A stretch of 64,000 nucleotides of DNA from Eucommia ulmoides (Eukaryota; Streptophyta; Magnoliopsida; Garryales; Eucommiaceae). The notes beneath the pieces were generated by a model. The model was not told where the DNA came from. It saw only the letters and a program-made list of their open reading frames with translations, and ran no database searches. Both the position numbers and the translations under genes were made by a program. This document shows positions 2,672-60,300 of the stretch, piece by piece (the first letter of the stretch is position 1; each line of letters opens with the position of its first letter). Where the stretch lies: positions 2,170,001 through 2,234,000 of the forward strand of contig CM028335.1 of the NCBI GenBank assembly GCA_016647705.1, in the 5' to 3' direction.

Positions 2672-3328
2672 AATTTGAAAACCGTTAAAATAAAAAATAA
2701 AAAATAAAAAAAAAGGAAAACGTTTTGAAATCCAAACGTTTTAAGACTAAAACGTTTTAAATTAATATTTAAACGTTTTTTTTTTATTTATTACTTTCGG
2801 TTTCAAAACAAAAAAAAAAATTCCTATAAATTGAAGGTTTTTTTTTCAGTTGAAGCACGAAAAAAAAAACCAGTGAACTGTTCCTCATTTTTGTTCCTGC
2901 ACTGTTTCTGTTCCTGATCTGCACTGTTTCTGTTTCTGTTCCGGTTTTGTTTCTGTTTCTGTTCCGGATTTGTTTCTGTTTCTGCTTCTGTTACTGTTTC
3001 TGTTCCGAAACATTTTCGGTTTCATCTTCCGGAATTGTTCCGATTTGTTCCGGTACTGTTTAATCTGTCCGATTTTGGTTTCCGAGCAGTTTTGTTCGTT
3101 TTGCGAACAGTGTGTGGGGGTGTTTGGTTTTCGGGACTTCTACAGTGCAAAGAACGTCCTAGATAGAGAAGAATTCTGGGCTGTTTTATCCTGGGGACGA
3201 CGGGGCTGATACACTGCTTGCACGTTCTTGGGCAGAGCCGCGAAACGTCTTAAAGAGAACGACCTAGTCCGCGACTCATCCCAAGAAAATTTGGTAAACT
3301 CGTACTTTATTTATTTTCTGCGACAACA
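2293..3328 (+). repeat. Left LTR of the copia element
   Basis: It is about 1036 bp, bounded TG/CA, and matches 7793-8797 along its length. The U3 part contains a CG-rich patch (about 2500-2550) and a TA microsatellite (about 2622-2667). A TATA box is followed by a pyrimidine-rich block (about 2880-3065) of repeated CTGTTTCTGTTCC-like units, probably the R/U5 region. An open frame at 2970-3209 comes from these repeats and is not taken as a gene. Confidence 0.95.
2824..2832 (+). promoter_or_regulatory. TATA box of the left LTR
   Basis: CTATAAATT is the only good TATA match in the LTR. It lies upstream of the pyrimidine-rich block where an R region would start, and the same motif is kept in the right LTR at 8294-8302. 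Transcription from the left LTR should start roughly 30 bp downstream. This is inferred from position, not measured. Confidence 0.6.
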
Positions 3329-3355
3329 ATTTTAAGACGTTCAATATCTGCTAAG

Positions 3356-6300
3356 ATGTCTGCTGATCACGATTTTAAACAAGTAACTGTTGATCTCAAC
3401 AAACCCTTTCGTTTCGAAGGGTTTCATTTTAAAAGATGGAGACAGAAAATGTTATTTTTTCTTACTATCGAAAAAGTAGCATATGTCTGTACAACAGAAA
3501 AACCACAATTATCTCAAGTTCCTACAGACGCTCAGATTCAAGAAGTTAAGTCTTGGGAGGAAAATTATTTACGTTGTAAGAATTTTATTCTTAATGGTAT
3601 GTCTGATGATCTGTATGATTATTACTGCTCTAACAAAACTGCAAAGGAAGTTTGGGATGCTCTTTCGAAGAAATACGACACTGAGGAGGCTGGAAGTAAA
3701 AAATATGCTGTTAGTCGGTATCTGAAATACCAAATGACCGACGACAAATCAGTGGAGGTTCAGTCTCATGAACTTTAGAAAATCGCTCACGAAATAATTG
3801 CTGAAGGTATGTCCCTTGATGAACAATTTCAAGTTGCTGTTTTAATTGAGAAATTACCCCCCTCTTGGAAAGATTTTAAGAATACTCTGAGGCATAAAAC
3901 TAAAGAGTTTTCTTTAAAAAGTTTGATCACTCGTCTTCGGATTGAGGAGGAGGCCCGAAAACAAGATCAGAAAGATGAAGTGCTTGTTGTTTCTAACAAC
4001 GCTCACAAAAGATCATCTTACGCAATTCTGAAACCTAAAGGGAAAAATATGAAAAATCAAAATCAGAATCGCAACCACAACAACCAGAACAGAAATGTGC
4101 ATCAAAATCAGAATAGAAACAAACTCCCTTCAAGAAATAATTCTGAACAGTTTACTTGTTATAACTGTGGGAAGGCGGGCCATTTGGCTCGAAACTGCCG
4201 GCAAAGACGTCGTCCTGTTCCACAGGCGAATCTTACCGAGGACCAACTTATAGCTATGATTTCTGAAATCAATATAGTTGGTGGATCCGAAGGGTGGTGG
4301 GTAGACACTGGTGCTTCACGCCATGTCTGCTATGATCGTACCATGTTCAAATCTTATTCTGAAAGTGAAGATAAGAAAGTGTTGCTGGGTGATTCCCACT
4401 CCACTATTGTTGCCGGTTCTGGTGAAGTGAAATTAAAGTTTACCTCTGGAAAGACAGTCATCCTTAAAGATGTTCTGCATACTCCAGAGATGAGAAAGAA
4501 TTTGGTTTCGGGCTATCTTCTAAACAAGGCGGGTTTCACTCAAACTATTGGGGCTGATTTGTACACCCTAACCAAAAATAATATTTTTGTTGGGAAAGGA
4601 TATGCAACTGATGGAATGTTCAAACTAAATGTTGAAATTAATAAAATTTCTTCTTCTGCTTACATGTTGTGTTCTTTTAATATTTGGCATGCTATACTTT
4701 GTCATGTTAACAAACGCATTATTAAAAACTTAAGTAACTTAGAACTAATTCCTAAATTGTCTTTGAATGATTTTGAAAAATGTGAATTTTGTAGTCAAGC
4801 TAAAATTACTAAAACCCCTCATAAATCAGTAATTAGAGAATCAGAATCTCTTGACTTGATACATTCTGATATTTGTGAATTTGATGGAGTCTTGACTAGG
4901 AATGGTAAACGGTATTTTATTACATTCATAGATGATTGTTCTGATTTCACTTATGTTTATCTCATGAAAAATAAAAGTGAAGCTTTTGAAATGTTTAAGA
5001 ATTTTGTAACTGAGATTGAAAATCAATGCAATAAGAAAATTAAGAGATTACGTAGTGATAGAGGAATAGAATATGATTCCGATATTTTTATTGATTTTTA
5101 TAAATCTCATGGGATTATTCATGAAAAAACTGCACCGTATTCTCCTGAAATGAATGGAAAGGTTGAAAGGAAAAATAGAACTTTTGCTGAATCAGTAGTT
5201 GCTATTTTACTTAACTCCGATGCAGCTTCTTACTGGTGAGGTGAAATTTTATTAACGGTTTGCTATGTACTTAATAGAGTTCCCAAATCGAAAAGTAAAA
5301 TTTCACCTTATGAAGTTTTCAAAAATAAGAAACCAAATTTGTCTTATTTTAAAACTTGGGGTTGTTTGGCATATGTTCGAATTCCTGACCCCAAAAGAAG
5401 AAAACTTGCTAGTAGAGCTTATGAATGTGTTTTTATTGGCTATGCGGTAAATAGTAAAGCTTATAGATTTTACGATTTGAAAGATAGAGTTATCATTGAA
5501 TCAAATGATGCTGATTTTTATGAATATAAATCTCCTTTCAAATTGAAGAATAGTGGGGGGCTCTACTTCTAGTAATGAACCTATCATTAGGATTAATGAA
5601 TCTAATAAGGAACTAGATATTGAACCTAGAAGGAGTAAACGACCTCGTATAGCTAAAGACTTTGGTTCAGATTTCTATGCATATACCTTAGAGGAGGATT
5701 CACTTACCCTCCAAGAGGCATTATCCTCTATAAATGCCAGTTTATGGCAAGAGGCTATAGATGACGAGTTAGACTCTCTCGAGTCAAATAGAACTTGGCA
5801 TTTGGTAGATTTACCTCTTGGTTGTAAAACAATAGGATGTAAATGGATTCTTAAGAAGAAATTGAATCCCGATGGAACCATTGATAAATATAAGGCTCGT
5901 CTTGTAGCCAAAGGGTTTAGACAAAGAGAGAATGTAGATTTCTTTGATACTTTCTCACCTGTCTCTAGAATTACATCTATTCGTGTGCTTTTATCTCTTG
6001 CTGCAATTCATGATCTTATTGTGCACCAAATGGATGTTAAAACTACTTTTTTGAATGGTGAATTAGAAGAAGAGATTTATATGGACCAACCTGAAGGATT
6101 TGTTATTCCTGGTCTAGAAAACAAAGTATGCAAATTAGATAAATCTCTTTATGGTTTGAAACAAGCACCTAAGCAATGGCATGAGAAATTTGATAATCTA
6201 GTCATTTCACATGGTTTTAAAGTAAATGAAAGTGACAAATGCATTTACTATAAATCTGAAAATGATGTTTGCATTATTATATGTATTTATGTGGATGACT

Positions 6301-7238
6301 TGCTAATTGTTGGTTCCAATATTCATGTTGTGAATAATGTGAAATCCATGCTATGTGCTAATTTTGATATGAAAGATCTTGGTGAAGCAAGTGTAATCCT
6401 TGGTATTAAAATAACTAGGTCTAAACATGGAATTTCTTTGGACCAATCTCATTATATAGAGAAGATTCTAAAGAAATACAATTATTTTGATTATAAACCA
6501 GCATGTACTCCTTATGACCCTAGTGTGAAGTTGTTCAAGAACATCGGTGACAGTGTTAGACAAACTGAGTATGCGAGCATCATAGGCAGTCTCCGATATA
6601 CCACTGACTGCACTAGGCCCGACATAGCGTATGCTGTGGGATTACTATGCAGGTTTACAAGTAGACCTAGTATTGAGCATTGGCATGCTATTGATAGGAT
6701 TATGAGATATCTAAAGAGAACTATGAACCTTGGATTACATTATCAGAAGTTTCCCGCTGTTCTGGAAGGATATAGCGATGCTGATTGGAATACCCTTTCA
6801 GATGACTCCAAGGCAACTAGCGGCTATATATTTAATATAGCTGGTGGAGCTGTTTCTTGGAAGTCTAAGAAACAGACTATTTTGGCTCAATCTACTATGG
6901 AGTCTGAGATGATTGCACTAGTTTCGGCTAGCGAGGAAGCAGGGTGGTTAAGGAGCCTGCTTTCTGATACCCCTTTATGGGAGAGACCGATTCCAGCTGT
7001 CTTGATCCATTGTGATAGTACTGCGGCTATTGCAAAGATTCAGAACCGTTATTATAACGGAAAAAAGCGACAAATACGTCGCAAACACAGCACTATTAGG
7101 GAGTATATCTCTACAGGGGCTGTGAGAGTGGATCATGTACGGTCTGATGATAACTTAGCCGATCCTTTGACGAAAGGATTAGCTCGAGAAAAGGTTTACA
7201 AAACCTCGAAAGGAATGGGACTCAAGCCCATAGATTGA
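3356..7238 (+). pseudogene. Copia gag-pol polyprotein, disabled by two stops and a frameshift
   Basis: Domains in order: gag (from 3356); a CCHC zinc knuckle CYNCGKAGHLARNC (about 4156); the aspartic protease site DTGASRHV (about 4303); the integrase HHCC zinc region (about 4687-4795) and DDE core, with acidic residues in HSDIC, RSDRG and NGKVERKN; the reverse transcriptase with YVDD (about 6288); and RNase H (about 6765-7100). Lesions: an in-frame TAG at 3776-3778 in gag, a TGA at 5237-5239 in the integrase, and a frameshift in the G-run near 5552-5557 before the RT. Frame is kept across both stops, so each is a point nonsense change. The element could move only with proteins supplied by a relative. 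Confidence 0.95.
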
Positions 7239-7792
7239 CGAGTCACTTGTGAGGGAAACCCAACCTATAGACTGGAGATCCCAAGAAATAGGTTCAAAGG
7301 GTAATAACAATTCATGAAGTGATATGAGAAAAATCATGCTATAAATTTGAGTTCTATTTCATAAATGCGCTGTTTGAAGCATGATATCTTGAAGCGATAG
7401 AAGGTTGAGTTTTTATTAACTCTTAATGAAATCTATACTTTATTTTTGAGTGGAGTACCTAGCTACAAGAGTACTCTTGATAGATTCACCTATGTGAATG
7501 TAGAAGTGTGGCCGCTTCCTATGGAATTTTGGGCAAAATTCTCTAGAGCATTCACTATACTGGGATACACGTGCATGGCCGTAAAGCACGGGCTTTTGGA
7601 CTACACCCTGATAGGGTTGTGTGTGTGATGTTGTTAGAGATAGAGTTCAAAACTACGAGTTACTCTAGTATAATCTAAAGCATCTTCACTATGTAAAGGT
7701 TCAAGTCGATAGATACCTTTTCTTATGCACAATCTTATATTGAATTATACTACTCGATGAAAAAATTATTTTTAAAAATTCAAGTGAGGGAT
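7239..7792 (+). other. Long 3' spacer and polypurine tract of the copia element
   Basis: About 550 bp separate the RNase H stop from the right LTR, and no domain is recognisable. A 60-codon frame (7446-7628) shows no similarity that I know. The last bases, aagtgaggga (7782-7791), form the purine-rich primer site for plus-strand synthesis just before TGTTGAAAC. Confidence 0.7.
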
Positions 7793-8797
7793 TGTTGAAA
7801 CAAATAAATTTTAATTTAATTTTTAGAATAGAAAGTGCCAAATGTGTCAAATTGGTTTTTTCCTCAAAACCTTTTGTCCCACATTGGTTGGGAGAGATAA
7901 AATTAAAGTGGATATCTAGGGGTATGTGAGACACTTGGGGTGTGCCCCAAGGGGTACCCACATTTTGTGGAGGGGAGAGGAGTTACATCCCTATCGGTTT
8001 ACCACACACGCGCGCGCCGCCGTCCGTCCGGCCGTGCCGAGCCGAGTCGCGCGTGTGATGAGGTGGCACTTATTTACTTTTTAGAAAAAATTTATTTAAA
8101 AATATTTTTTAATAAAACAGTTTAATTAAATAAAAAAAATATATATATATATATTGAATTTGAAAACCGTTAAAATAAATAAAAAAAAAAAGGAAAACGT
8201 TTTAAGACAAAAACGTTAAAACGTTTTAAATTAGTATTTAAACGTTTTTTTTTTTTTATTTATTACTTTCGGTTCAAAACAAAAAAAAAATTCCTATAAA
8301 TTGAAGTTTTTTTTTTCAGTTGAAGCACGAAAAAAAAAACAGTGAACTGTTCCTCATTTTTGTTCCTGCACTGTTTCTGTTCCTGGTCTGCACTGTTTCT
8401 GTTTCTGTTCCGATTTTGTTTCTGTTTCTGTTCCGGATTTGTTTCTGTTTCTGCTTCTGTTACTGTTTCTGTTCCGAAACATTTTCGGTTTCATCTTCCG
8501 GAATTGTTCTGATCTGTTCCGGTACTGTTTAATCTGTCCGATTTTGGTTTCCGAACAGTTTTGTTCGTTTTGCGAACAGTGTGTGGGGGTGTTTGGTTTT
8601 CGGGACTTCTATAGTGCAAAGAACGTCCTAGACAGAGGAGAATTCTGGGCTGTTTTATCCTGGGGACGACGGGGCTGATACACTGCTTGCACGTTCTTGG
8701 GCAGAGCCGCGAAACGTCTTAAAGAGAGCGACCTAGTTCGCGACTCATCCTAAGAAATTTTGGTAAACTCGTACTTTATTTATTTTCTGCGACAACA
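7793..8797 (+). repeat. Right LTR of the copia element
   Basis: It is about 1005 bp and matches the left LTR. It is shorter mainly because the TA microsatellite is reduced (about 8140-8156). It has the same TATA box (8294-8302) and pyrimidine-rich block. It ends in GACAACA, followed by the target duplication tttgt (8798-8802). Confidence 0.95.
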
Positions 8798-9982: not shown

Positions 9983-10286
9983 TGTTCTGATCTTTATATT
10001 ATATAAAACAAGATGGACAAAAGAGTTACGGACGTTTTTCAGCCGACTAATTTCATAGGAGACAAAAAACAATTCAGATCAAAACAAATTTTAATATAAT
10101 AAAACATGATGGATTTAAGAGCTCTAAGGTATGTTTGGTTGAAGTGATGGAAAAGAAAAAGAGAAATAAAAATAATTTTATTTTTTTTATCCTTTGTGGA
10201 AGAAAAATCATTTTTCTTCAGGTTGTTTGGTTGGAGGGATAGAAAAATATAATATTTTATATGTAGTAAAGAAAGAAAAATAAAAA

Positions 10287-10334
<48 letters not shown>

Positions 10335-11524
10335 TTATTTAATTTACTATTTTACCCTTATATATTACAAAATAAAATAAGAATTTTATCAATAAAAAAA
10401 TGAACAATTCTTTAACTAATAAAAAATAATTAATTAAAATAGGATTATAAGTATAGCAATCAACATTGAAGTTGAATACAATGTACGTAAATTTCAAATG
10501 AAATCAAAACGAAAAAAATTAAAAAATCACGGTGAAGTGAATGGGTAGATGGGATGCAATCGTGAAATTAAAAAAAATAAAATTCCAAAAAGTCATGGTG
10601 AAGTTGTGAAGTGGTGAAGTGAATGGGTAGATAAATAATAAGGGGTATAATGGTAATTTTATTACTATTTCCAACATATCCATCCATTTTCATCCCATTT
10701 TCGAGAGAAAAAAAATTAAAAACGTTAATGATTTTAGTCAGAAAATGGGTTGTGCTCATCATGTGGTCTTTTAATGAGGATATTTTTGTCATTTCATCAC
10801 TTCAATAAACCTAATACGTTTTCTCCTAACTTTTTTCTAACTAACGATTTGTCTGTAAAATGAGATAAAAGAGCCATATTTCTTTTAAGGAAAGTCCGAG
10901 CATAACCCATTTTACGTGAATTAAAACAAATCTAGATCTTGAGGTATCAAATGTGCAATTTGACAAACTTCAGAGTCGACATAGACACCATCCCATACTT
11001 AAAGGGAGCAAAAATATGTTTTTTTGTTTCATGTTTATAGATTATATTTATGACTTTTATGTGAATTGTGATAAGTTCGACATTGAAGGATTTATTTTGA
11101 CCCTATCTTTAGAAACATTAGGGGCACATTGCACATAATAATAAGAACAATAACACAAGTTCCATTGACAAACTTGTCCATAATATGTGCAAAAGGCATC
11201 TAGTCTAATGTGGTGGCCTGAAAATCATAGGGCAGTAGAATTTTGGAACGTTATGTAATAATAATAATATTGGACTCCCTCACCTAATTTTTCTTCAATT
11301 GGATTATTATTAGTTCTAAATTTTGTAAAAACTTTGATTGTGACACCCATTATATATTTCACTAATTAATGATGTGGGGGATGCATGGATCTTTAAAGTT
11401 ATGGGACAATCAGTGGGAGATCTTCTATTTAAGCTCTAATTGGTCAAAAATCTTATATGTGGTAAAAACTTTTGATTTAGTTTCATCTGTTTTAAAAAAA
11501 CGGAAATCTTACACACGTGATAGT

Positions 11525-21795: not shown

Positions 21796-24250
21796 ATGGA
21801 TTACGAGCCGGACTTCGACGATCACATCTCGCCGTCGTTCGATCACGCGGTAACCTTTCGAATCTCTCAATCTAGATCTTTCTGGTTCGATTGAATTTTA
21901 TTTCTAGATCTCTAACGCTGCGGTTTAGGGTTTGTTTTAGATCTATGTTATGTTATCAACATCAGATCTAAACTTAACCTTGTTTCGGCCATAGATTTGT
22001 TTAAATTTTGGTTTCTTTTTGCCCCGCGATATAGTTTGAGATTGCATGTTTAAAGTTCTCAATCTCATAGACGAGAGCGTTCCGGTTTCGCAATTTAGGT
22101 TTTCATATTGCTAGACTGGAAAGGAAGAAGGAAAATGCTTTAGATTTTGGTGCTGGACTTTTAGGGTTCGTTTGGTTGTTCTTCGATTCGCACGCAAATT
22201 GAACTAATTTTAATTAGGCAATTTATGAATTGTTTTGGTTGTAAGAATTAAAATCGCTTAAATTTGCTAGCAAACCATTTTAGTTCTAGTCCTAGCGCAA
22301 TTTTCTCGTGTAATTGAAGTAAAATATAGATTGAAAATTTAACCAGAGTAAAACATTTGTATTGTTCGCTTGTTCCAACAAACAATGTATAAATTTGATT
22401 AAATCATAGGTAAATGGAGAAAATATGCAAATCAATTCATCGAAAACATGATAACTAGAAAAATAGTATAATTTGGGCAACCAAACGGGACTTGGAGAAT
22501 ATGTTATTTTACTCGAAATTTCTGCTTACTTTTTTCATTTTTAAGATCGAATATTGAATCTTAGATTTTTTTTTATTGAATTGGTCTAATAGACAGCAGT
22601 AATGGAAAATACGGGATTTTAATCGTTTCAAACTTTGAATAATGCCCGATCATATAGTCCTAGCCCTAGCTTATTCAATTGAATACTAAAATACGCGAAA
22701 GAATGAATAATTTTTTGTTTATGAATTATAGCAATCGAAATTGAAGCTGTGGAATTGGAATTTGAAATGTGAAAAAATTCTAAAATTTTACCCGCGAAAC
22801 GGATCATTTTTAATTCCAATTCCATTCAACCAAACACTGCCTTAATGCAAATGCATCCATTCGGGGTGGCTAAAAGATGTAATTTTTACATCATCATTCT
22901 CTTCCTCCCCCTCTTTATCTCCAGGAGGAAGAAACCAAGGTTGAAAAATGAAGGATCGGAGAGCTCCTGTGGAAGCTCTCAGTATGTAATGTAATCTTTT
23001 TTGGCTGAATCATTACATGCTAATATATATGTATGCATATGTGTGTGTGTATATGTATCTAGCTCTACTTATACTATTCCATGTTCGGAAAATTATACTT
23101 TTTGGTCCCTAAAGCATGGGGTGGGTGTTTATGCGGGCCCTGAGGTTTGCGAAATTTCAAATTTGGTCCCTCAAGTTTCACATTTGTTTCAATTACTTAA
23201 AAATAAAAGCCTTGCTAATGATTTCAGGCGGAAAATGAGTTGTGCTCAACACGTGGCCTTCTAAATCTAATAAAGATATTTTTGTCATTTCATCACTCCA
23301 ATAAGCCTAAGACGTGTTCCACTTCCTGTAACCTTTCCCCAACAACGATTCGTCTGAAAAATGAAAGAAATAAACCATATTGTTGTTAAGGAAAGTCTGA
23401 GCAGAAACCCATTTTACATCAAAAATCATTAATAACGTTTTCAATTTTTCGAATTGAAACAAATGTGGATCTGGAGGGATCAAATGTGCAATTTGGCAAA
23501 CTTCAAAGTCTAGTAGTCCACATCACTTGGTTGTAAGAAGTAAAAACAGAAAACACTGAAATTAGGTAGCTAAACTGAACAATTGTATGATTCTTTGTTC
23601 AAAGAAATAAACAATATGTAAATTTAATTAAATCATAGGTAAATGGAGAAATATAAAAATAAATTCATCAAAAGTAGGATAATTTAGACAACCGAACAAA
23701 CCCTTAATAAATTTTGTTAAGGACAAATTTACAAATCGCTTCTTGATATGAAAATACTTTCTTCAAATATACCTTTACCCAAACGCATCATAAAAGTTTG
23801 GTTTCTTGTGTTGCTGTTTAACGATTTTATCCCGATTTATATTGCATTAGAATCAATTCATAAAAAATAGGATAATTTAGAGAACCAAACGGACCCTCAA
23901 TAAACTTTTGCCCGAACGCGCCATAAAAAATTGGTTTCTTGTATAGCTGTTTAACGATTTCATCCTGATAATATATATATATATATATTGTGGAAAACCA
24001 TTTTTGAATAGAAGTTTTTTGATTTTATGAACAGAAAAATGTGGTGAATGATGGTGAAGTGAAAGGGTTCAACCCGGGATTGATGGTGTTGCTGCTTGTT
24101 GGTGGGCTGGTGGTGTTGTTTCTGATCGGGAACTATGCGCTCTACTTGTATGCCCAGAAAACGCTTCCTCCTAAGAAAAAGAAGCCGGTCTCGAAGAAGA
24201 AGATGAAGAGGGAGAAACTGAAGCGAGGTGTTTCTGCTCCTGGAGAATAA
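21796..24250 (+). CDS. S1FA: S1FA-like small DNA-binding protein
   Basis: There are two coding exons, 21796-21849 and 24035-24250, joined in phase 0 across a 2.2-kb intron, giving 89 residues, close to the usual 70-90 of this plant family. The ATG is in good context (agccATGG). Exon 1 is acidic ([10 protein letters not shown]). Exon 2 has the family signature GFNPGL, a hydrophobic stretch of about 20 residues ending [10 protein letters not shown], then [20 protein letters not shown], and ends GVSAPGE. S1FA was described as a factor binding the S1F negative element of plastid ribosomal protein gene promoters. The basic tail is a nuclear-localisation and DNA-binding candidate. The hydrophobic run looks like a membrane span and does not fit a simple soluble factor. 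The intron holds several repeats (22163-22490, 23090-23514). Confidence 0.95.
22163..22490. mobile_element. Foldback element in S1FA intron 1
   Basis: gggttcgtttggttgttc and gggcaaccaaacggga are inverted ends. The inside, with aaatttgattaaatcataggtaaatggagaaa, recurs at about 23625-23705, in IMPA9 intron 8 and in RH57 intron 11. This is a dispersed MITE-like family. Confidence 0.65.
23090..23514. repeat. Dispersed repeat shared with the tandem array
   Basis: It contains ctttttggtccctaaag, then cggaaaatgagttgtgctcaacacgtggcc and onwards. The latter part is homologous to about 775-1010 (copy A) and 10730-10970 (copy B). A shorter relative is at 43866-44045. The shared words are gaaacaaatgtgga and tcaaatgtgcaatttg. 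Confidence 0.75.
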
Positions 24251-25237: not shown

Positions 25238-25649
25238 TCAACCATCCATGACCTGCTTCTTCATCCATTGATTTTCTTCCCCTTTCAAAAAATAAAAATA
25301 AAAATTATAAATTTTTAGAAACAATTTTGATTTGAAAATATAATTTGTGGGTGTTCTTACAATTCGATCTCTTGAAATTTGCGCCGTCGCAGTAGTCCCG
25401 GCGTCGCCGCCGGATTTATCCGGCGGAGGAATCCGAAAGTGGGTCTCCGGACCTCTGTAATCTATATCATATATCCCTGAATCCCTATCTGATTCTCCTG
25501 TACAAAACCCAATTCATCCATATCAATCTATACGTATAGAGAGAGAGAGAGATGTAGAGAGAGAGAGAGAGCTAACCTGTCGAGAAACATGGAACAGAGA
25601 GGAGGAGGAAGATGATAAAAATGGCGGTGAAGTTAGGCTTGAGCTCCAT
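25238..25649 (-). CDS. Candidate secreted peptide precursor (signal peptide plus Asp-Tyr/Pro motif)
   Basis: Exon 1 (25577-25649) begins ATG and encodes a clear signal peptide: MELKPN, a hydrophobic run FTAIFIIFLLLSVP, then CFST. A GTTAGC donor follows. The acceptor TTTTGTACAG leads into exon 2 (25497 downwards), which stays in frame across the phase-1 junction. It encodes a short acidic linker, then DYRGPETHFRIPPPDKSGG and a Thr/Ala-rich tail. The frame reads through to TGA at 25238-25240. Alternatively a donor GTAAGA at 25355-25360 may splice to a short last exon ending a few codons later. Signal peptide, small size and an acidic Asp-Tyr next to a Pro-rich end are the layout of tyrosine-sulfated plant peptide hormones (PSY, CIF, RGF classes), but the core fits none that I can name. 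The intron is rich in GA repeats (25541-25575). It lies tail-to-tail with S1FA. Confidence 0.6.
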
Positions 25650-25799
25650 GGGAGATTAATAAGCTTGCTATCTATGGTGTTTATCTGTTGAAGAACGAGA
25701 GAGAGAGAGAGGAGAGAGAGAGGGGTCATGGAAGAAGTATGGGAGAGGAGTAACGGTTTAAAGCTTCGGGCAAAATCAATGGCGAGGTGTTTTTAAAGG

Positions 25800-51377: not shown

Positions 51378-54300
51378 TCATGAGAGGTGGAATGCTCCTT
51401 GGCCTTCTACAATAGCATACAACATTCTCTCTTTCATCCTCTCCTGCCAAACACCAAAATTAAATCAACAAATAATTGGGGATAGATATTAATAATAAGA
51501 AGAAAAAAAAAGGGTTTAGGGTTTAGGGATGAAGGAGAAAGCTGAAAGGGCCTACTTTTGAAGAGTAAGGAGGCAGCTTTAGATAGTTTGCACATGTCAT
51601 TACACTTGGGAGGTCTGCATCCACCAATCCACCACAATGCTGAAATCCAAAAATTAAAAAAACAAATAAATAAATAAGAACACAAAAACAAAAAAAAAAA
51701 AAAATTGAGGGGGGGGGGGGGGTGTTGGTGAAGGGTAATGGTTGGCAAGGCCATGTATAAATTATCCATTTTAGGTATAGTGATTATAGTTCCACCGACC
51801 ACTGTCGGCAGACCACCATCACGTTGAAGTAGTGGAATATAACAAAGGGTATTTTAGGTATTTTAATTACAATAGTAACTAACTTTATATTAACTTGTGT
51901 AAGTAATGGAATGTTAAAAAAAGGGTATTTTAGGTATTTCAATTACAATTTTAAATATTTAATCAGTGTAAAGTAGCGAAAAGAATGTAACGATAAGTAT
52001 TTGAAATTAAAACTGAAACTAAATTTATATGAATTAGTGTAAAGTGCAAAGTAACGGAATATAACAAAGGATATGTTATAAGCATTTTAATATTTTTTGA
52101 ACTAGTTGAAATAGTGGAATGTAACAAAGATAAAATCGTCGAGAAAAATCGAAAGGACTAAAATTCAAGTTGCAAAAAGACCGCAAATCAAGGCATGAAA
52201 ACGTAATATGGGAGCCACCATCAAAATCCCCACCCCCAACCCCTGCCCACCTCACCCACCCACAAAAAAAAATGATTTTTAGGTCGAATTTACCTTGCGA
52301 ACAATTGTTAATTTAGGGTTGAGAGATGCCAGTCCTCCTGGAGGGAGCCGAGGTGCCCCGGTCACAAATTGCAGGAAAGCTCTTTGTTGTGCACGCTCAA
52401 ACTCTCGCATAATTTCAAGCAACTGCAATTTGCAAGTGAAAAATAAACAGTATATATAAAGACGTAAATGGGAGTCAGAAAGAGGAAGAAATACTTGAAA
52501 AAAACTACTGACATATATGATGTGAGAGCTGCTCGCTGTGTATCCATGATCAAACTTGATGTGGTCCAGAAGATCGGTTGGCTACAAGAAGAACAAGAAT
52601 ATTTGTCATTAATAAGACCAGTTAGGTAAGGCAGCATTTGGAAGTAAAAAATTTGCGGGCTTGGAGTTGGAATTTAGAATTGAACGCTCAACGCATGTGG
52701 TAACAAAATTGAAAACGTATATGCATTCATTTCTAATTCCAGTTCCTTGAAACCAAACGCTGCGTAAAGGGAATTTCAGATTTCAATTTTTGATCAAATG
52801 AGTATATACATACATTCCAGCATTCACGTTCTCCACATAGTAAATGTTCTAGCTCTTCCTCCGTGAAAATCTGTATATGTCTTATAGGGAAAACCTGAAG
52901 AATGAAGAACATGTTTCATTGGCCGAACTTTAAAAGATATTACGAAAATTCAGATTCATTTATCATACTTTCTCCAAAAGCAGAATTTGCTCATATTGAA
53001 CAATTACCCTAAAAAAAACCAAAAAACAAAAAAAGATATTCCAATCTACCTACAGACAGTATATAAGGTGGTGTTTGGTTAATGTTTTTGTTTTTCTGTT
53101 TATAATTCTAATAAATTGGGATTGGGTGGGATGAGAATTCTATTTCCGTTCTAGATTATTCAAGAAATAGAAACATGTTTGGTAACGACCACTTGTCCTA
53201 AAATTGTTTCTTTTAATTTATGAGAACATAAACAAGAAACACGTTTGGTTGCAGTGTTGGTGGTGGCCGGCGGGGTGGTGGCGGTGGCTTGCGGGTGGGG
53301 GTGGTGGCTGGCAGGAATAGTTTTGTGTAAGTAAATAGGAATCAACATTTTTTTGTTTCTCAGATTCTTAAGGAATTCAAGAAATAGTCGCAACTTACTC
53401 CCAAAATTTTGGGAATAGAAACATGTTTACCGAACACGTTTTTGTACATTAATCCCAAAATTTTGGGAGCGGGAACATGAATCAGGGAATAAAAACAGTA
53501 ACCAAATGGGGCCTAAAGTTTCTGCTCTGCATTTGTCAGCCTATAATAATAAAATCATGCCATTATGAGCAAGGTCTCTAGTACATGAAAAGCATAAATA
53601 ATTCAATACAAAGAGATTTTTCATGTTGCCCAAGACTAATAATTACAAGCATAAACCACTTTAAATCACTAATTTGAAGAACAAATTATATAATTTCATG
53701 CCATGAAAAATCCCAATTCTCAACCGACTGGTTTCTCATTATGCATGGAAAAAGACTATTTGTAATGGCACAAACCTGATCAAACCCCGATTTAAATGCT
53801 TCCAATTGTCTGGAAATTCCAGAATTAATAGTTGCATCGGCAATAAGTGAAACATATTCCTCCAAGTTACTCATATTCACCTAGAAAAAAACAACAAAAA
53901 AAGAAAAGAAAAAATGAGTTAGCTCTATAATCTATCAAAATTTAAAATCTTGAAAAAATCACGGGCAAACAGAAGCATAAAGAACCAACCATCTTGGAAT
54001 CAGCTTCAGGCTTAAGAAGGTAATCAGGATATCCAGGAAGAGTAAAATCAAGGCAAAGATCCTCAATTCTCGTGTTTCGGAAGTTCAAATCATGTTCTAG
54101 TATTGATTCTTCACAGAGAGATTCCAAATATCTTTTCCTTTCGACAATAGCAAGAAACTCTATAATAACCCTACCAAGTTCAGGATCAAATGATTGAATA
54201 TCATACACAGTGAGTTCCTGTGCAATCGATTGAAAAAGAAAAACATGAGGATAAACATTATAATTAACAGTAATAAGGAAAATGCACAACAGATCAAAGA

Positions 54301-57300
54301 AACATAAGGATTTTGGAGAGGAAGATAATATTTTGATATTATGTTCTATATTTTCTACAATAAGGTTTTACACTCCCTATTATATAGCCATAACGGTGTG
54401 GTAAATTAGGAAGAATATTACCATAATGAATGGGACAGTAAAAAGAAAAAGGAAGCTACCAAATTGGTCAACATGACTTAAGTACTGAATACTAAATAAT
54501 ACATTAATGTAAATATTAAATATTCCGACAGAAACAAATAAGACTAGAGGTGTACCTGTCCGAGAATTACTTTACAGAAGGCTTTAGACAACGGGATATC
54601 CAAAACCCTTCCGTCTTGAAGAGCCTTTGCCACAACCTGTCCCAGGAGAACAAACTTTTTGGTCACTTCCGAAAATTCTATGCCACCACATGTACTCACT
54701 GCAGACGACCATGGGCGGGGGAAGAGTCCAAGAGTAGACACCAGAATATTAGAATGCTCGTCGTCCACAAATTTCATGGAGGTCAATGGCATATTATCTT
54801 CTCTCCACATACCCAGGCCAGGCTTTTGGAACTCGTGACTGACTAGCGTATAGAATTCCAAAGTGGGACCCAGACCCGTACCAACTTCTTCATCATATTC
54901 CACCTCAAGTAGACCTTTTTCACGGGCATGGATGTCCATCATACGGGTTGCGGAGGCCAAAATTTGATCTCGGTAAACCAAAAACTTTTTACGAGGCAAG
55001 GCACCATGGCTTTGCTGCCTGCTGCTATTTCGCCCTCCTGAATTATTATGTGACGATGATGGATGAGGCTGAATATGCTGCTGACCAAATGCTGCCAACT
55101 TGAAATACTTGCATCTAGTATCGAAAGCAAATAAAAAAGGGCACGAATCCATTAATTTGGTACACCATGCAGGCAATCCACCAACAGACACAACCAAAGC
55201 GTCCCGTATTTGCTGTTCCAGTTTTTCTGTCAATTTATTGCTTACGAACTCATTCTGCTGGAAGTCAGTAACTGGAACCTTTAACTTATCGAAACTATCT
55301 ATTTTCCCTTCAGCAAAAGCATATATTCTCTCACGGCACATCAGATGAAATCTGAACTTGCTCATGCCTTCCAAACATTTAAGCAGAAACAAGATATCAT
55401 ATGCTGGACTACACTTTTCCAAAACAGAAGCAAGTTCAGAAGAAAACATTCCAGATAAAATCGGAGTGTAGCACCAATTTTTCTCAGCTTTCTTCAAAAC
55501 AGAAGAACATTGAACCTGATGATGAGGACAACTTTGTTCTGGTTTCACAGCTCTCCTGTATGTTACCCTGTATACTTGACTCCAAAATTTAGCATTTCTA
55601 CCCATATCATGTTCTACTTTCATTTGTTGTTGGAGAATTGCTTGATATAGAGTCAACGACTTGTCCATCGGTTGCCCTTCTATGTAAAATAGCAACTTTG
55701 GTAAATCACTTCCGTTGCTACAAGTTTGAGGATACTTGTTGCTCAAGCTACTCTCCTCTGACACAAACTTGCAATCCTCCTGCCCCACAGACTCCTAAAT
55801 TGAAAGAAAATAAGAAAAATAAAGATGATGTAAGGTTAAAATACACTACGTACTAAAAGCTGTACAATATTATGAAAGGGAACACAGAGAGACGCACATC
55901 CCATCGAAGATTACAAGAACATCCAAATTATAAGTACACAGATACCAAAAATGCCCGATAAAGGAAGAAGCATGACCCTTAAATAATTTCACAAGAAAAA
56001 AAGGATTTTATGCTGCATCAGACTGACAAGCAGAAACTCATGCATGAACAAGGATGGATCAACTTACATTACGTAATTCGCCTATACTTGTGGATTCATC
56101 AGCTGTCTGCCTTGAATCAGCTGCTTCTCCAGGTGCAGCTTCTGATAAATTACGCATGTCCTCCTGCACAAAAACAAAAGCAAAGTTTAACAGAATTTTA
56201 TCATATCTAGTCAAAGGAAACAAAAGAGTGAGCCGTTGGTAGGTGGGATTTGGAAAGGGGAGCACATGCATCATTGTTCCACCATGTTGGAAATGAACTA
56301 TATGACAAAAACCTGCATTCGATACCCTTCAGCAAGCATGCTCTCCAATTCCATAAAATATGGAATTTTGCCTTGTGCACCGCTCCCACCTGAAGCTAAA
56401 TGAGAGCACTCCTGTTCAAAGTAAATCCTAGCTGTCAATGCTGATGTTGATGCTGATGCTGTGGAGTCTCTTTTGTTTACAACTCTAGGCAACAAGTATC
56501 TTTCAATTTCATCCAAATGTGAAAAAGGGTCAACCGTAACAACATCTTTGGAGTAATCACTTAGAGATGCCTCTCCCTCTTCCCTCACAAATTGAACTCT
56601 CAAACATGCATGTTGTGTGCAACGTCCATATGGGACAGTAGCGTATGAGCTCCTGGGTCTAGAAAAATGGCTCAAATTTACAGGAAAATTTTCCACAGAA
56701 CCTAGTGCGTTTTTCAGTCTATGAATTAGCAGTATTGCAGGGCAGTCCTCTGTGGGAAAGTCAGGAGAAGACAGAAGCAGTTTTCCGAACACCTCAAATC
56801 TCTTCTCAATGATAAATATTTGATTAGATTCAACACCACCATCTAGATTTTCGTTGAGATATTGACCATTGGAGAGGTAAGTCATCAGCGCTTTCACTAT
56901 TCCACTCTCAACGAATTCAAACGTGGAAATATAGTCTCTTCCACTAAGCTGCGACACAATTTGACGCAATATACAACATAGTTCTTCTTCATGGTGCGTG
57001 GAAGCATCACTTTTTATAGGCATGTTCACTAGCTCAGTTAATTTGGCGGAGATCAATTTGAATTTCTGATGTACATCTGTCAATCCATCCTCGGGATTTG
57101 GTAATTCTGTGGCAAAGTAACTGGTCCGTATATGCTTTGCAAGATCATGAATAGAATCTTTATTAAGCCTGCAAGTACCCGGGTCTGAAACTGATAAAGA
57201 GCGATCAGTATCAAATGCGTAACATAAACATCTCATGACATCTCTTCCAGCAGTCTTTCTACTTGCATCTAATGACATCTGGATGCTATTGAACATTGGA

Positions 57301-60300
57301 AATGTGAAATGTGAACAATTCTCAGGCATAAAAATGGCATCAACAGCAAAAATGACACCTTCTTTAATGAAAGAGTTTAAGAAAGTATCAGACAGCTTTT
57401 CCAGGATAGTATCAACAATCTGAAGGGCTAATATTAGCACATGGTGATCCTTCCGTGTGAAAACGCCAGCCAAAAAGCTGCAGTATGATATACAAGAGAG
57501 TTGTCAGCCTAGGAATTATTTGCTACATGGAGGATTAGAAGGAAGATAAAACGACATTTTAACCTTGAAATGTTGGTGCTATTTAGCAATTTAAGAAGCC
57601 CCCCAGATTTGCTGAAGTAAACTATCTTGTTGATGACGGATAGACAGCAATAACAAACATATAAATTTGCACCAGAATCAACCACCTGTTTCAGGACAGA
57701 TCTCAACTATTTAGTAAGCCTTAAGAACACACACACACACACATATATATATATAAGTTAAGACCATCAACAAACCAACCTGGATTAACACAGGAAGTAA
57801 ATCCATCCCAAGCTTTTCCAAAAAATCAGGCCGATTAACTAGAAGGGCCTCCTTTTCTGATGCTACTGGAACATCTTTATCTCTGGAAACAGCAGGGAGA
57901 AGCTCATTCAATAGCTTTAAAACTTCATGCACCTAAAGGAAGACGATGCATCAGTTCCTTGAGCTCTACTGTGAAGTTATGGATATTATACAAGACTAGC
58001 ACGATATATACCAAACTCTAAAATCATGCCTATTGCGGTCCAACAACTACAAGTAGATAAATTATCAGGACGCTTTAATCAGGATAAGGTACCACAACAA
58101 CAAAAACAACAATCTATGTAGCTACCAAAAGTTGGCTCGAGAGAGCAATCTCCTCTCCATCCAATTGGATATTAAGTCTATGATTTTTTACTTTCTCAAA
58201 TCTACCTCCCGTACTTAATCCCACCACCCCACCCCTCCTGCAAAAAAATGGTCTACCTGTTGGTCTTGTAACACCTTCTGAATTCTAAATTGAAAACCTA
58301 TTTAGAATAAAACTCTATTTATAGGTCTACAACATATATATCCGAACTCCAAAAATTTTGACTTATTTTTCTCATCGTGTCTTCCATTAGTATTCAGTAC
58401 TAATACTATTATTTCCAGTATATATACCTTTCTTACTTTATCTTGTTTTAAATTACCACTCATTCATCTTATTCACACACATTATGCTGCTTCTTAGAAG
58501 CACGACACTAATCTATATAACATCATCTGCTCTCTCATGAACACAAATGAGAACCACACTTTTCACTTTAACCACTTATTCCAGGATGATTTTCATATCT
58601 TAGTCTATACTTTGTCAATCTCTCCCTGAGACAGAATTTCACTGTATAACTTAAAGTTCTATTCCACAATAGCTCATATGACTTTAAATGTCACATTTGA
58701 TGTCTTCGTCTATACTTTATCAAGATGTATAATATATGACCTAATGCTACCTAGAATGTCATACTTTCATCAATTTGGGATCGTGTGCACTTTAATCAGT
58801 AATATGGACAGTGGGGCTGATCTTAGATGGCTCACTCTTTCATGGTTTGCTTGGATTCCATATTTGTTTAGATTACATCCTTTGTTCATAATTTATTTTA
58901 CACGGGAATACTAATAGGAGCAATTTTACAAAGTGAAGAAGAACATATAATGAAACTGTTTAGTCAATATTTCCTTCTCTCCTTGTTTCTTAAAAAAAAA
59001 CTAACTATTGATACGATGTTCCTAAAATTTTCACGATAAAGATATAATTGCTTCAATAATTATAGTGTCTGAATGCCAACATGGCATGATATATCTCTTT
59101 TGGTTGTTGGTTCAAACAGAATACAAATTACAACTAAATTGAATATATAGTTATAAACCGATCACTGAGAAGTAAATAGCACATTAATTATTGAGGTTTC
59201 TTTTACTATTTGACTCGCAAGGAATTTTAACCCAAGATCTAATTATGAATGAAACCTTCCCAATAACTGAAGACATCTTTCTCATTTTTTATGGAAAATC
59301 ATATTTGAGGTGAGATTTACAAAATCAGGAAGCTAACTTTCCCATTTCCAGGATCCTCTTTCCCTCCCAATAACTGAAGACATCTTTCTCATTTTTTTAT
59401 GGAAAATCATATTAGAGGTGAGATTTACAAAATCAGGAAGCTAACTTTCCCATTTCCAGGATCCTATTATTCACTAGACTTAACGATCCAGATCAAAGGA
59501 GAACCTTCATCAGGAAGGCAAGAACCAAATCGTGGTTCATGCCTGCATGGCAATACCAGGAATTAGGTAACCCTTTCACAACTAATATGTTTTGTTCCTA
59601 AGAAAGTTTGTCCAATTTTGAATGCTATTCATTTTAATTGAGGTAGTAAAATATTTGTGTAGTATAAATGTCACATTGTACTCTATTTGTCACTCTCTTT
59701 CAAAGTTTTATAGTATGACTTTGACACGTCTTTCTCCAATCATTCTACGCTTTCTTATTCCTCAAGATGTTTAGAGCTCAATTAACTACTCTATCCAAGT
59801 ATCTAGTAAATTGTTTTATACATTACAAGGATTCTAGCCCGAACCTGCAAGTCTTCGACTTTAATCTCTTAAATGGTAATCCTCAATTTAGATATACTAA
59901 TGATCTGACCGTATCTTTAACACCTAGTCTAAGTTTAACAATGTGTTCTGAGTATGAGTCATCAATATTAGTCTCACTATTTATTTATTATTTATAAAAA
60001 TCCACCAACATTCTTCTATGTAGTATATACTCATTCACTAGACATTTTGGTTTTTTTAGTTTATCACACCAAACATTACTGAAACATCTTTTCTACTTTT
60101 CTCGTAGCTTAGAAAATTGTGTATAGATTTATACCTCCATCTTTGTTGAGAAAATTGAGACATAGTACGGCCTAGATTGCGGCTCCCTAATAGCTCATCA
60201 GCGACCAAACTAAGATAGTTGAGATAAACTATCCTCGTAAAAACGCTCATCTCATATATGACTCTAGTAGTTTTTTCTATTTATTCTTTGAAATTGTCAG

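Follow-up and report, generated by a model that had tools for sequence, protein, structure and literature searches.

A small three-exon gene in Eucommia ulmoides for a putative tyrosine-sulfated secreted peptide, and its duplicate on C9

Short open frames on the minus strand of the window (the whole 64,000-nucleotide stretch of DNA that was analysed here) raise the question of whether they form a real gene and, if they do, whether the product could be a sulfated peptide hormone. Joined by two introns, these frames give a three-exon gene on the minus strand at 25261-25649, with a predicted precursor of 76 residues. The features are as follows, in the order of transcription:

25577-25649, minus strand: exon 1, 73 nt, encoding MELKPNFTAIFIIFLLLSVPCFST and the first base of a Gly codon; signal-peptide-like
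25498-25576, minus strand: intron 1, 79 nt, GTTAGC...TTGTACAG, GT...AG, phase 1; predicted, backed by the copy on C9
25361-25497, minus strand: exon 2, 137 nt, encoding an acidic lead-in, an Asp-Tyr core, IPPP and a variable linker
25439-25477, minus strand: conserved block GIYDIDYRGPETH, with the same residues in both copies
25412-25462, minus strand: putative mature peptide region DYRGPETHFRIPPPDKS; start placed by analogy and end putative, on the basis of conservation and of RGF6 and TWS1 cleavage
25282-25360, minus strand: intron 2, 79 nt, GTAAGA...TTTGAAAG (GAAAG end), phase 0; predicted, backed by the copy on C9
25261-25281, minus strand: exon 3, 21 nt including the stop, GKKING-stop

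Exon 2, read on from the phase-1 intron, carries ESDRDSGIYDIDYRGPETHFRIPPPDKSGG, and the onward reading is ESDRDSGIYDIDYRGPETHFRIPPPDKSGGDAGTTATAQISRDRI. The initial annotation had described a gene of two exons ending at 25238. Its first exon and the beginning of its second were retained, whereas its end was not, given that 25238 marks where the reading frame stops if it is left unspliced and that a third exon lies at 25261-25281 behind a second intron of 79 nt. After ...SRDRI, the sequence presents the donor GTAAGA, an AT-rich stretch and the acceptor TTTGAAAG, and it is likely that this second intron and the 21-nt last exon place the predicted end of the window gene at 25261. An alternative last-exon frame, EENxWMKK, is also alike in both copies at the DNA level. 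By inspection, it is reached in the window only through retention of intron 2, and in the C9 copy an acceptor 2 nt downstream could reach it. We preferred GKKING (RKKIHG in the C9 copy) to EENxWMKK because, by inspection, the ordinary donor and the first AG lead to it in both copies. At the other end of the gene, an upstream ATG at 25729 (minus strand) opens a frame of 68 codons (25523-25729) that overlaps with exon 1 in another reading frame and could limit translation of the precursor if transcription starts upstream of it.

A protein search of the genome (947 Mb in 391 contigs) for relatives of the gene returned one other place, C9:30017701-30017793, with 71% identity over 31 residues. In its full extent (C9:30017518-30017994), this second copy has three exons, as in the window, and encodes a precursor of 90 residues, MELKPSITAFFLVILLLALPCSSRGIKRISDRNTGIYDIDYRGPETHSYIPPPNRSRGKHNNIHQSKFVPNTKSEALRGQINGGRKKIHG. 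Exon 1, which in the C9 copy encodes MELKPSITAFFLVILLLALPCSSR, and exon 3 have the same lengths in both copies (73 and 21 nt, respectively), and the homologous exon 2 measures 179 nt in C9 versus 137 nt in the window. Intron 1 (96 nt in C9 versus 79 nt in the window) agrees in position and in phase (1), and intron 2 (108 nt versus 79 nt) lies at the corresponding place in phase 0. Exon 3 of the C9 copy reads RKKIHG-stop and matches the window GKKING-stop at 18 of 21 bases. Besides the core, both copies keep IPPP and the MELKP start, and their KKI-x-G tails are similar. Beyond IPPPxxS, conservation between the copies fades and they diverge in sequence and in length: the window precursor is 14 residues shorter, 3 of them before the core and 11 after it, and where the C9 copy has a basic RGKHNNIHQSKF part the window copy has a stretch rich in G, A and T.

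Since the C9 copy repeats this layout with an identical 13-residue core, in which only synonymous changes have occurred, the gene is not a product of chance, and the comparison of the two sequences confirmed that the tiny split gene in the window is real. The proposal that a signal-peptide exon is joined in frame through the intron at 25498-25576 was thus borne out by the same layout in C9, and the acidic lead-in, Asp-Tyr core and proline run that had been singled out in the initial annotation were recovered, with the core and IPPP conserved between the copies. It had also been anticipated that the DYRGPETH block would be kept while the rest drifts. In two copies of one genome the block is indeed kept and the linker drifts, but the KKI-x-G end is conserved as well.

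The selection pressure on the precursor was estimated from 61 comparable codons of the window and C9 copies (25 of the signal peptide, 30 of the core and 6 of the last exon), with the remainder of exon 2, which could not be aligned, and three codons found only in C9 ahead of the core left out. By Nei-Gojobori counting, these codons hold 24.5 synonymous and 23.5 non-synonymous differences, which correspond to a dS of 1.08, a dN of 0.19 and a dN/dS of about 0.18. When an equal number of substitutions was placed at random 20,000 times, and sets containing a stop were scored as not conservative, none of the sets was as conservative overall. Taken by parts, the observed degree of conservation was matched in the 30-codon core by 20 of the 20,000 sets, in the signal peptide by 19 and in the 13-residue block by 3. 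The block itself, GIYDIDYRGPETH, shows five synonymous and no non-synonymous differences between the copies. Exon 3 alone, which is very short (6 codons), has two non-synonymous differences and one synonymous. Aligned DNA identity was 52/73 in exon 1 and 93/137 in exon 2, compared with 53/79 in intron 1, where CT repeats help, and 44/79 in intron 2. As intron 1 offers no clear contrast to the exons at the DNA level, it is the codon pattern that carries the case, and it showed purifying selection on the predicted precursor.

Judged by hydropathy alone, the N-terminus is signal-peptide-like. Of the 605 ATG openings in the window that run for 24 codons or more, 8 reached the hydropathy of exon 1, its own opening included, and 4 passed a stricter signal-peptide-like filter, which was devised after the sequence had been seen. 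Sulfated peptides of the DY type have their conserved motif at or close to the C-terminal end of the precursor, and C-terminal extensions are described for CIF3, CIF4 and TWS1; here, the core occupies residues 32-53 of the 76-residue window precursor and is followed by a partly conserved tail. Within the core, D-I-D-Y is the same in both copies and places Asp at positions -1 and -3 of the Tyr, which fits the site described for plant tyrosylprotein sulfotransferase (TPST), whose preference is given in the excerpt of PMC13074997 as an Asp-Tyr motif with further acidic residues. The precursors of 76 and 90 residues fall within the range of 71-180 residues tabulated for Arabidopsis sulfated peptide precursors, which carry an N-terminal signal peptide, and their Pro residues fit the same table (PMC11534595, in the part available). 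Regarding processing, the available text of PMC13082318 tabulates a cleavage of RGF6 directly before Asp-Tyr under SBT3.8, and reports that TWS1 is cut before Asp-Tyr by SBT1.8 in a reaction that requires sulfotyrosine.

On these grounds we give a probability of about 0.6 to the reading that the gene encodes the precursor of a tyrosine-sulfated, processed apoplastic peptide hormone that would act via a receptor kinase. Under such a reading, the nuclear gene would give rise to a secreted precursor of 76 residues, which the signal peptide would direct into the secretory pathway. There, TPST would sulfate the Tyr of the acidic D-I-D-Y, and the prolines of IPPP may be hydroxylated. By analogy with TWS1 and RGF6, a subtilase would cleave ahead of Asp-Tyr, leaving DYRGPETH as the putative start, and other proteases would trim the C-terminal side. 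The putative product, approximately DY(SO3)RGPETHxxIPPPxxS, would be an apoplastic ligand whose sulfotyrosine and core are read by a receptor kinase. Its mode of action would be like that of a PSY, RGF or CIF hormone, without membership in those families by the sequence tests presented below.

The same features can be read in another way, namely as those of a small, conserved secreted protein that is not cut into a hormone but acts intact in the apoplast or the ER, for instance through binding to a component of the wall or to a partner protein, with Asp-Tyr as part of its binding face. We took this possibility seriously, because the core sits in the middle of the protein and the KKI-x-G tail is similar in the two copies, so that, together with the MELKP start, both ends are alike too. 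Nevertheless, after IPPP the copies differ in sequence and in length, with 11 more residues after the core in C9, which gives no sign of a folded domain, and the precursors of CIF3, CIF4 and TWS1 are likewise extended C-terminally (PMC13082318, in its available text). We regard a protein that works whole as unlikely, although it is the foremost of the alternatives.

Less probable still is decay of the window copy, with the C9 copy as the only duplicate that still functions. Such decay would agree with a length 14 residues below that of the C9 precursor, with the G/A/T-rich stretch found where C9 has the basic RGKHNNIHQSKF part and with the out-of-frame overlapping frame that begins at the upstream ATG 25729. 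However, the window copy keeps its four splice signals, its frame and its core intact, and the 13 codons of the core show no amino-acid change, though a dS of about 1.08 should have brought some if the copy had long been unconstrained. That the N-terminus might stay uncleaved as a signal anchor, which would make the product a tiny membrane protein, is suggested by a single strongly hydrophobic stretch in 76 residues; but this stretch is short and is closed by small residues (VPCFST in the window, LPCSSR in C9), and by inspection both copies have C and S where positions -3 and -1 could lie, and we hold an anchor to be very improbable. Finally, a chance arrangement of open frames, to which the short frames and the AT-rich region might lend some plausibility, was rejected in view of the second copy, its shared splice structure and the result of the selection test.

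The core was also compared with the known families. Four families of tyrosine-sulfated plant peptides are named in the available parts of PMC11534595 and PMC13074997: PSK, PSY, RGF, and CIF with TWS1. From each copy, the 20 residues that follow DY were compared with the 27 non-PSK motifs tabulated in the excerpt of PMC11534595 (13 RGF-type, comprising RGF1-10, GLV8, GLV9 and CLE18, 9 PSY and 5 CIF/TWS1), the shared DY being ignored, and each of the 54 comparisons was expressed as a z score against 500 shuffles. Beyond Asp-Tyr, none of the 27 PSY, RGF and CIF-type motifs was clearly above shuffled letters. The best z was 1.4 for the window copy (with RGF10) and 1.6 for the C9 copy (with RGF9). 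A z of at least 1 was reached in 7 of the 54 comparisons, all of them RGF-type: RGF6 and RGF10 with both copies, CLE18 with the window copy, and RGF8 and RGF9 with the C9 copy. We see in this a faint tilt toward RGF, which we did not count as membership. In the identical test, the window copy against the C9 copy gave a z of 10.8, and within-family controls gave 9.0 (PSY1-PSY2), 4.0 (RGF1-RGF5), 13.2 (CIF1-CIF2) and 2.9 (CIF1-CIF3); as even CIF1-CIF3 reach only 2.9, very distant kinship could escape this test.

The nearest single motifs belong to RGF/GLV/CLEL, namely RGF10 (DYMQPTTHPPHHN), RGF6 and RGF9. Common to this family and the present peptide are the Asp-Tyr start, a Pro at position 5 (in several), Pro-Pro and a short precursor, and RGF10 shares with it Thr-His at positions 7-8. 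In contrast, the tabulated RGF motifs, which begin with (D/E)Y, finish with HN or NN, at residues 13-16 (PMC11534595, as available), an end that the window copy does not have. The C9 copy does contain HN, but 22 residues in and followed by 29 more, which is unlike the end of an RGF motif. Neither the scores against the 13 RGF-type motifs (at best 1.4 in the window and 1.6 in C9) nor the missing HN or NN end in the window thus supports membership in RGF/GLV/CLEL. With CIF1-4 and TWS1, whose family is defined by binding to GSO1/GSO2 as ligands, the gene has in common the Asp-Tyr start, the richness in Pro and the short precursor (76-102 residues in that family, some extended C-terminally, according to the excerpts of PMC11534595 and PMC13082318), but it lacks the LIPN, PIPH/PVPH or IEH end, and z against the five motifs ranged from -1.1 to 0.1, which does not indicate membership. 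PSY peptides resemble it in Asp-Tyr, in Pro at position 5 in several of them, in the later Pro-Pro of PSY1 and in precursors of 71-104 residues; nonetheless, by inspection the present gene has no N-x-(K/R)-H-x-P block, which 7 of the 9 tabulated PSY entries contain, and z against the nine motifs ranged from -1.9 to 0.9, so that PSY membership was not indicated either. The PSK motif YIYTQ/YIYTH was found by inspection in neither precursor, and both full-length precursors, searched against Pfam with E up to 10, matched no family.

The view in the initial annotation that the core is unlike those of PSY, CIF and RGF was therefore upheld, with no clear match among the 27 motifs and no Pfam family. 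Its further suggestion that the peptide may be undescribed was not established, since two families are candidates for it. Ghorbani et al. (2015; PMC4526923) listed, in the part of their article available, the tyrosine-motif families f131, f409 and f919, which had not been reported before, and f919-2 (AT4G34600) later became CIF2 (PMC4526923, PMC11534595). The PlantSSP families f131 and f409 are described as secreted, conserved and bearing a tyrosine in their motif, a likeness by description as far as the excerpt of PMC4526923 goes, and the present gene may belong to one of them. At somewhat less than even odds, and hence tentatively, we propose that it represents an uncharacterised family of sulfated hormones, with the core DYRGPETHxxIPPP, a three-exon gene, a micro-exon end KKI-x-G and a receptor of its own. 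If true, a further sulfated family would mean another pair of hormone and receptor, and the candidate is a short peptide, open to synthesis and immediate testing. The case also illustrates that such genes, here with exons of 73, 137 and 21 nt, can be detected in raw sequence, with an old duplicate in the same genome as support.

Further relatives were sought with the core and with the full protein. Allowing up to one mismatch, the core pattern occurred at 2 places in 947 Mb and a reversed control pattern at none. The full C9 protein, with E up to 10, gave nine matches in the genome, four of which were the two known genes and five of which were weak and lay elsewhere. Translations were read for four of the five weak matches, and three of them contained no core-like sequence. 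The stretch at C5:50013541-50013711 (minus strand), SYRGPETHALRNPIPPTMRRV-stop, reads YRGPETH followed by IPP instead of IPPP, without Asp-Tyr or an acidic lead-in, and was taken as chance. Because the search scores its best candidates only, two copies are a lower bound. In a collection of viral contigs, 35 stretches matched the pattern and none was confirmed, and in a prokaryote collection one of 24 stretches, from a bacterial MAG, matched over 19 residues with 58% identity and was taken as chance; these two scans do not bear on conservation in plants. Chance was likewise taken to explain the one PDB match of the 25-residue core, a ribosomal protein with an E of 0.77. DYRGPETH and six shorter or varied strings were absent from the paper text that was searched, which did not extend to figures, supplements and most subscription papers. 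Similar unnamed proteins may exist in other plants, a point to which we give no weight as evidence.

The origin of the gene pair was approached through its neighbours. One of them in the window, which is not part of the peptide gene, is:

24023-24250, plus strand: end of an S1FA gene, an open frame of 75 codons (Pfam PF04689, E 1.3e-37)

This gene lies about 1 kb from the peptide gene, tail to tail. A copy of it at C9:30153414-30153608 (minus strand) stands some 135 kb away from the peptide gene of C9 and is convergent with it too. Altogether, three S1FA matches above the family cut-off were found in the genome. A weaker match lies at C5:52256104. The S1FA pair has a dS of 1.25 versus 1.08 for the peptide pair. 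Given that S1FA stands convergent near each copy and that the two dS values are similar, the peptide pair likely arose by one old segmental or whole-genome duplication. A second copy on C9 was also searched for, and not found, for the UPL4 exon and the importin-alpha exon of the window. As these other window genes are without a C9 partner, the duplicated block rests on S1FA and the peptide gene only. The large ubiquitin ligase exon at 56298-57503 (minus strand), which we take to be UPL4-like, has its other matches in the genome only on C7, with 35-47% identity, including C7:2677462-2678583.

The surroundings of the C9 copy were examined by tblastn, with the 1565 window frames that have 25 codons or more as queries and 100 kb (C9:29968001-30068000) as the target. 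This search gave 12 matches: nine Copia-type frames, two exons of the peptide gene and one short match, and thus no further shared gene within the 100 kb searched beyond the Copia-type frames and that short match. The latter extends over 34 residues (50%, E 7.7e-6), joins the window frame 53363-53512 (minus strand) to a site roughly 2 kb beyond the peptide gene of C9 (L013:1429-1530) and could be a shared repeat. In the window, a Copia-type retroelement occupies 2877-8678 (plus strand), with its frames at 3254-7238. Two near-identical frames of 110 codons, 2877-3209 and 8346-8678, flank these Copia frames and look like terminal repeats. Farther out, the frames 61-336 and 10039-10338 (minus strand) are alike, as though the Copia element had inserted within another repeat.
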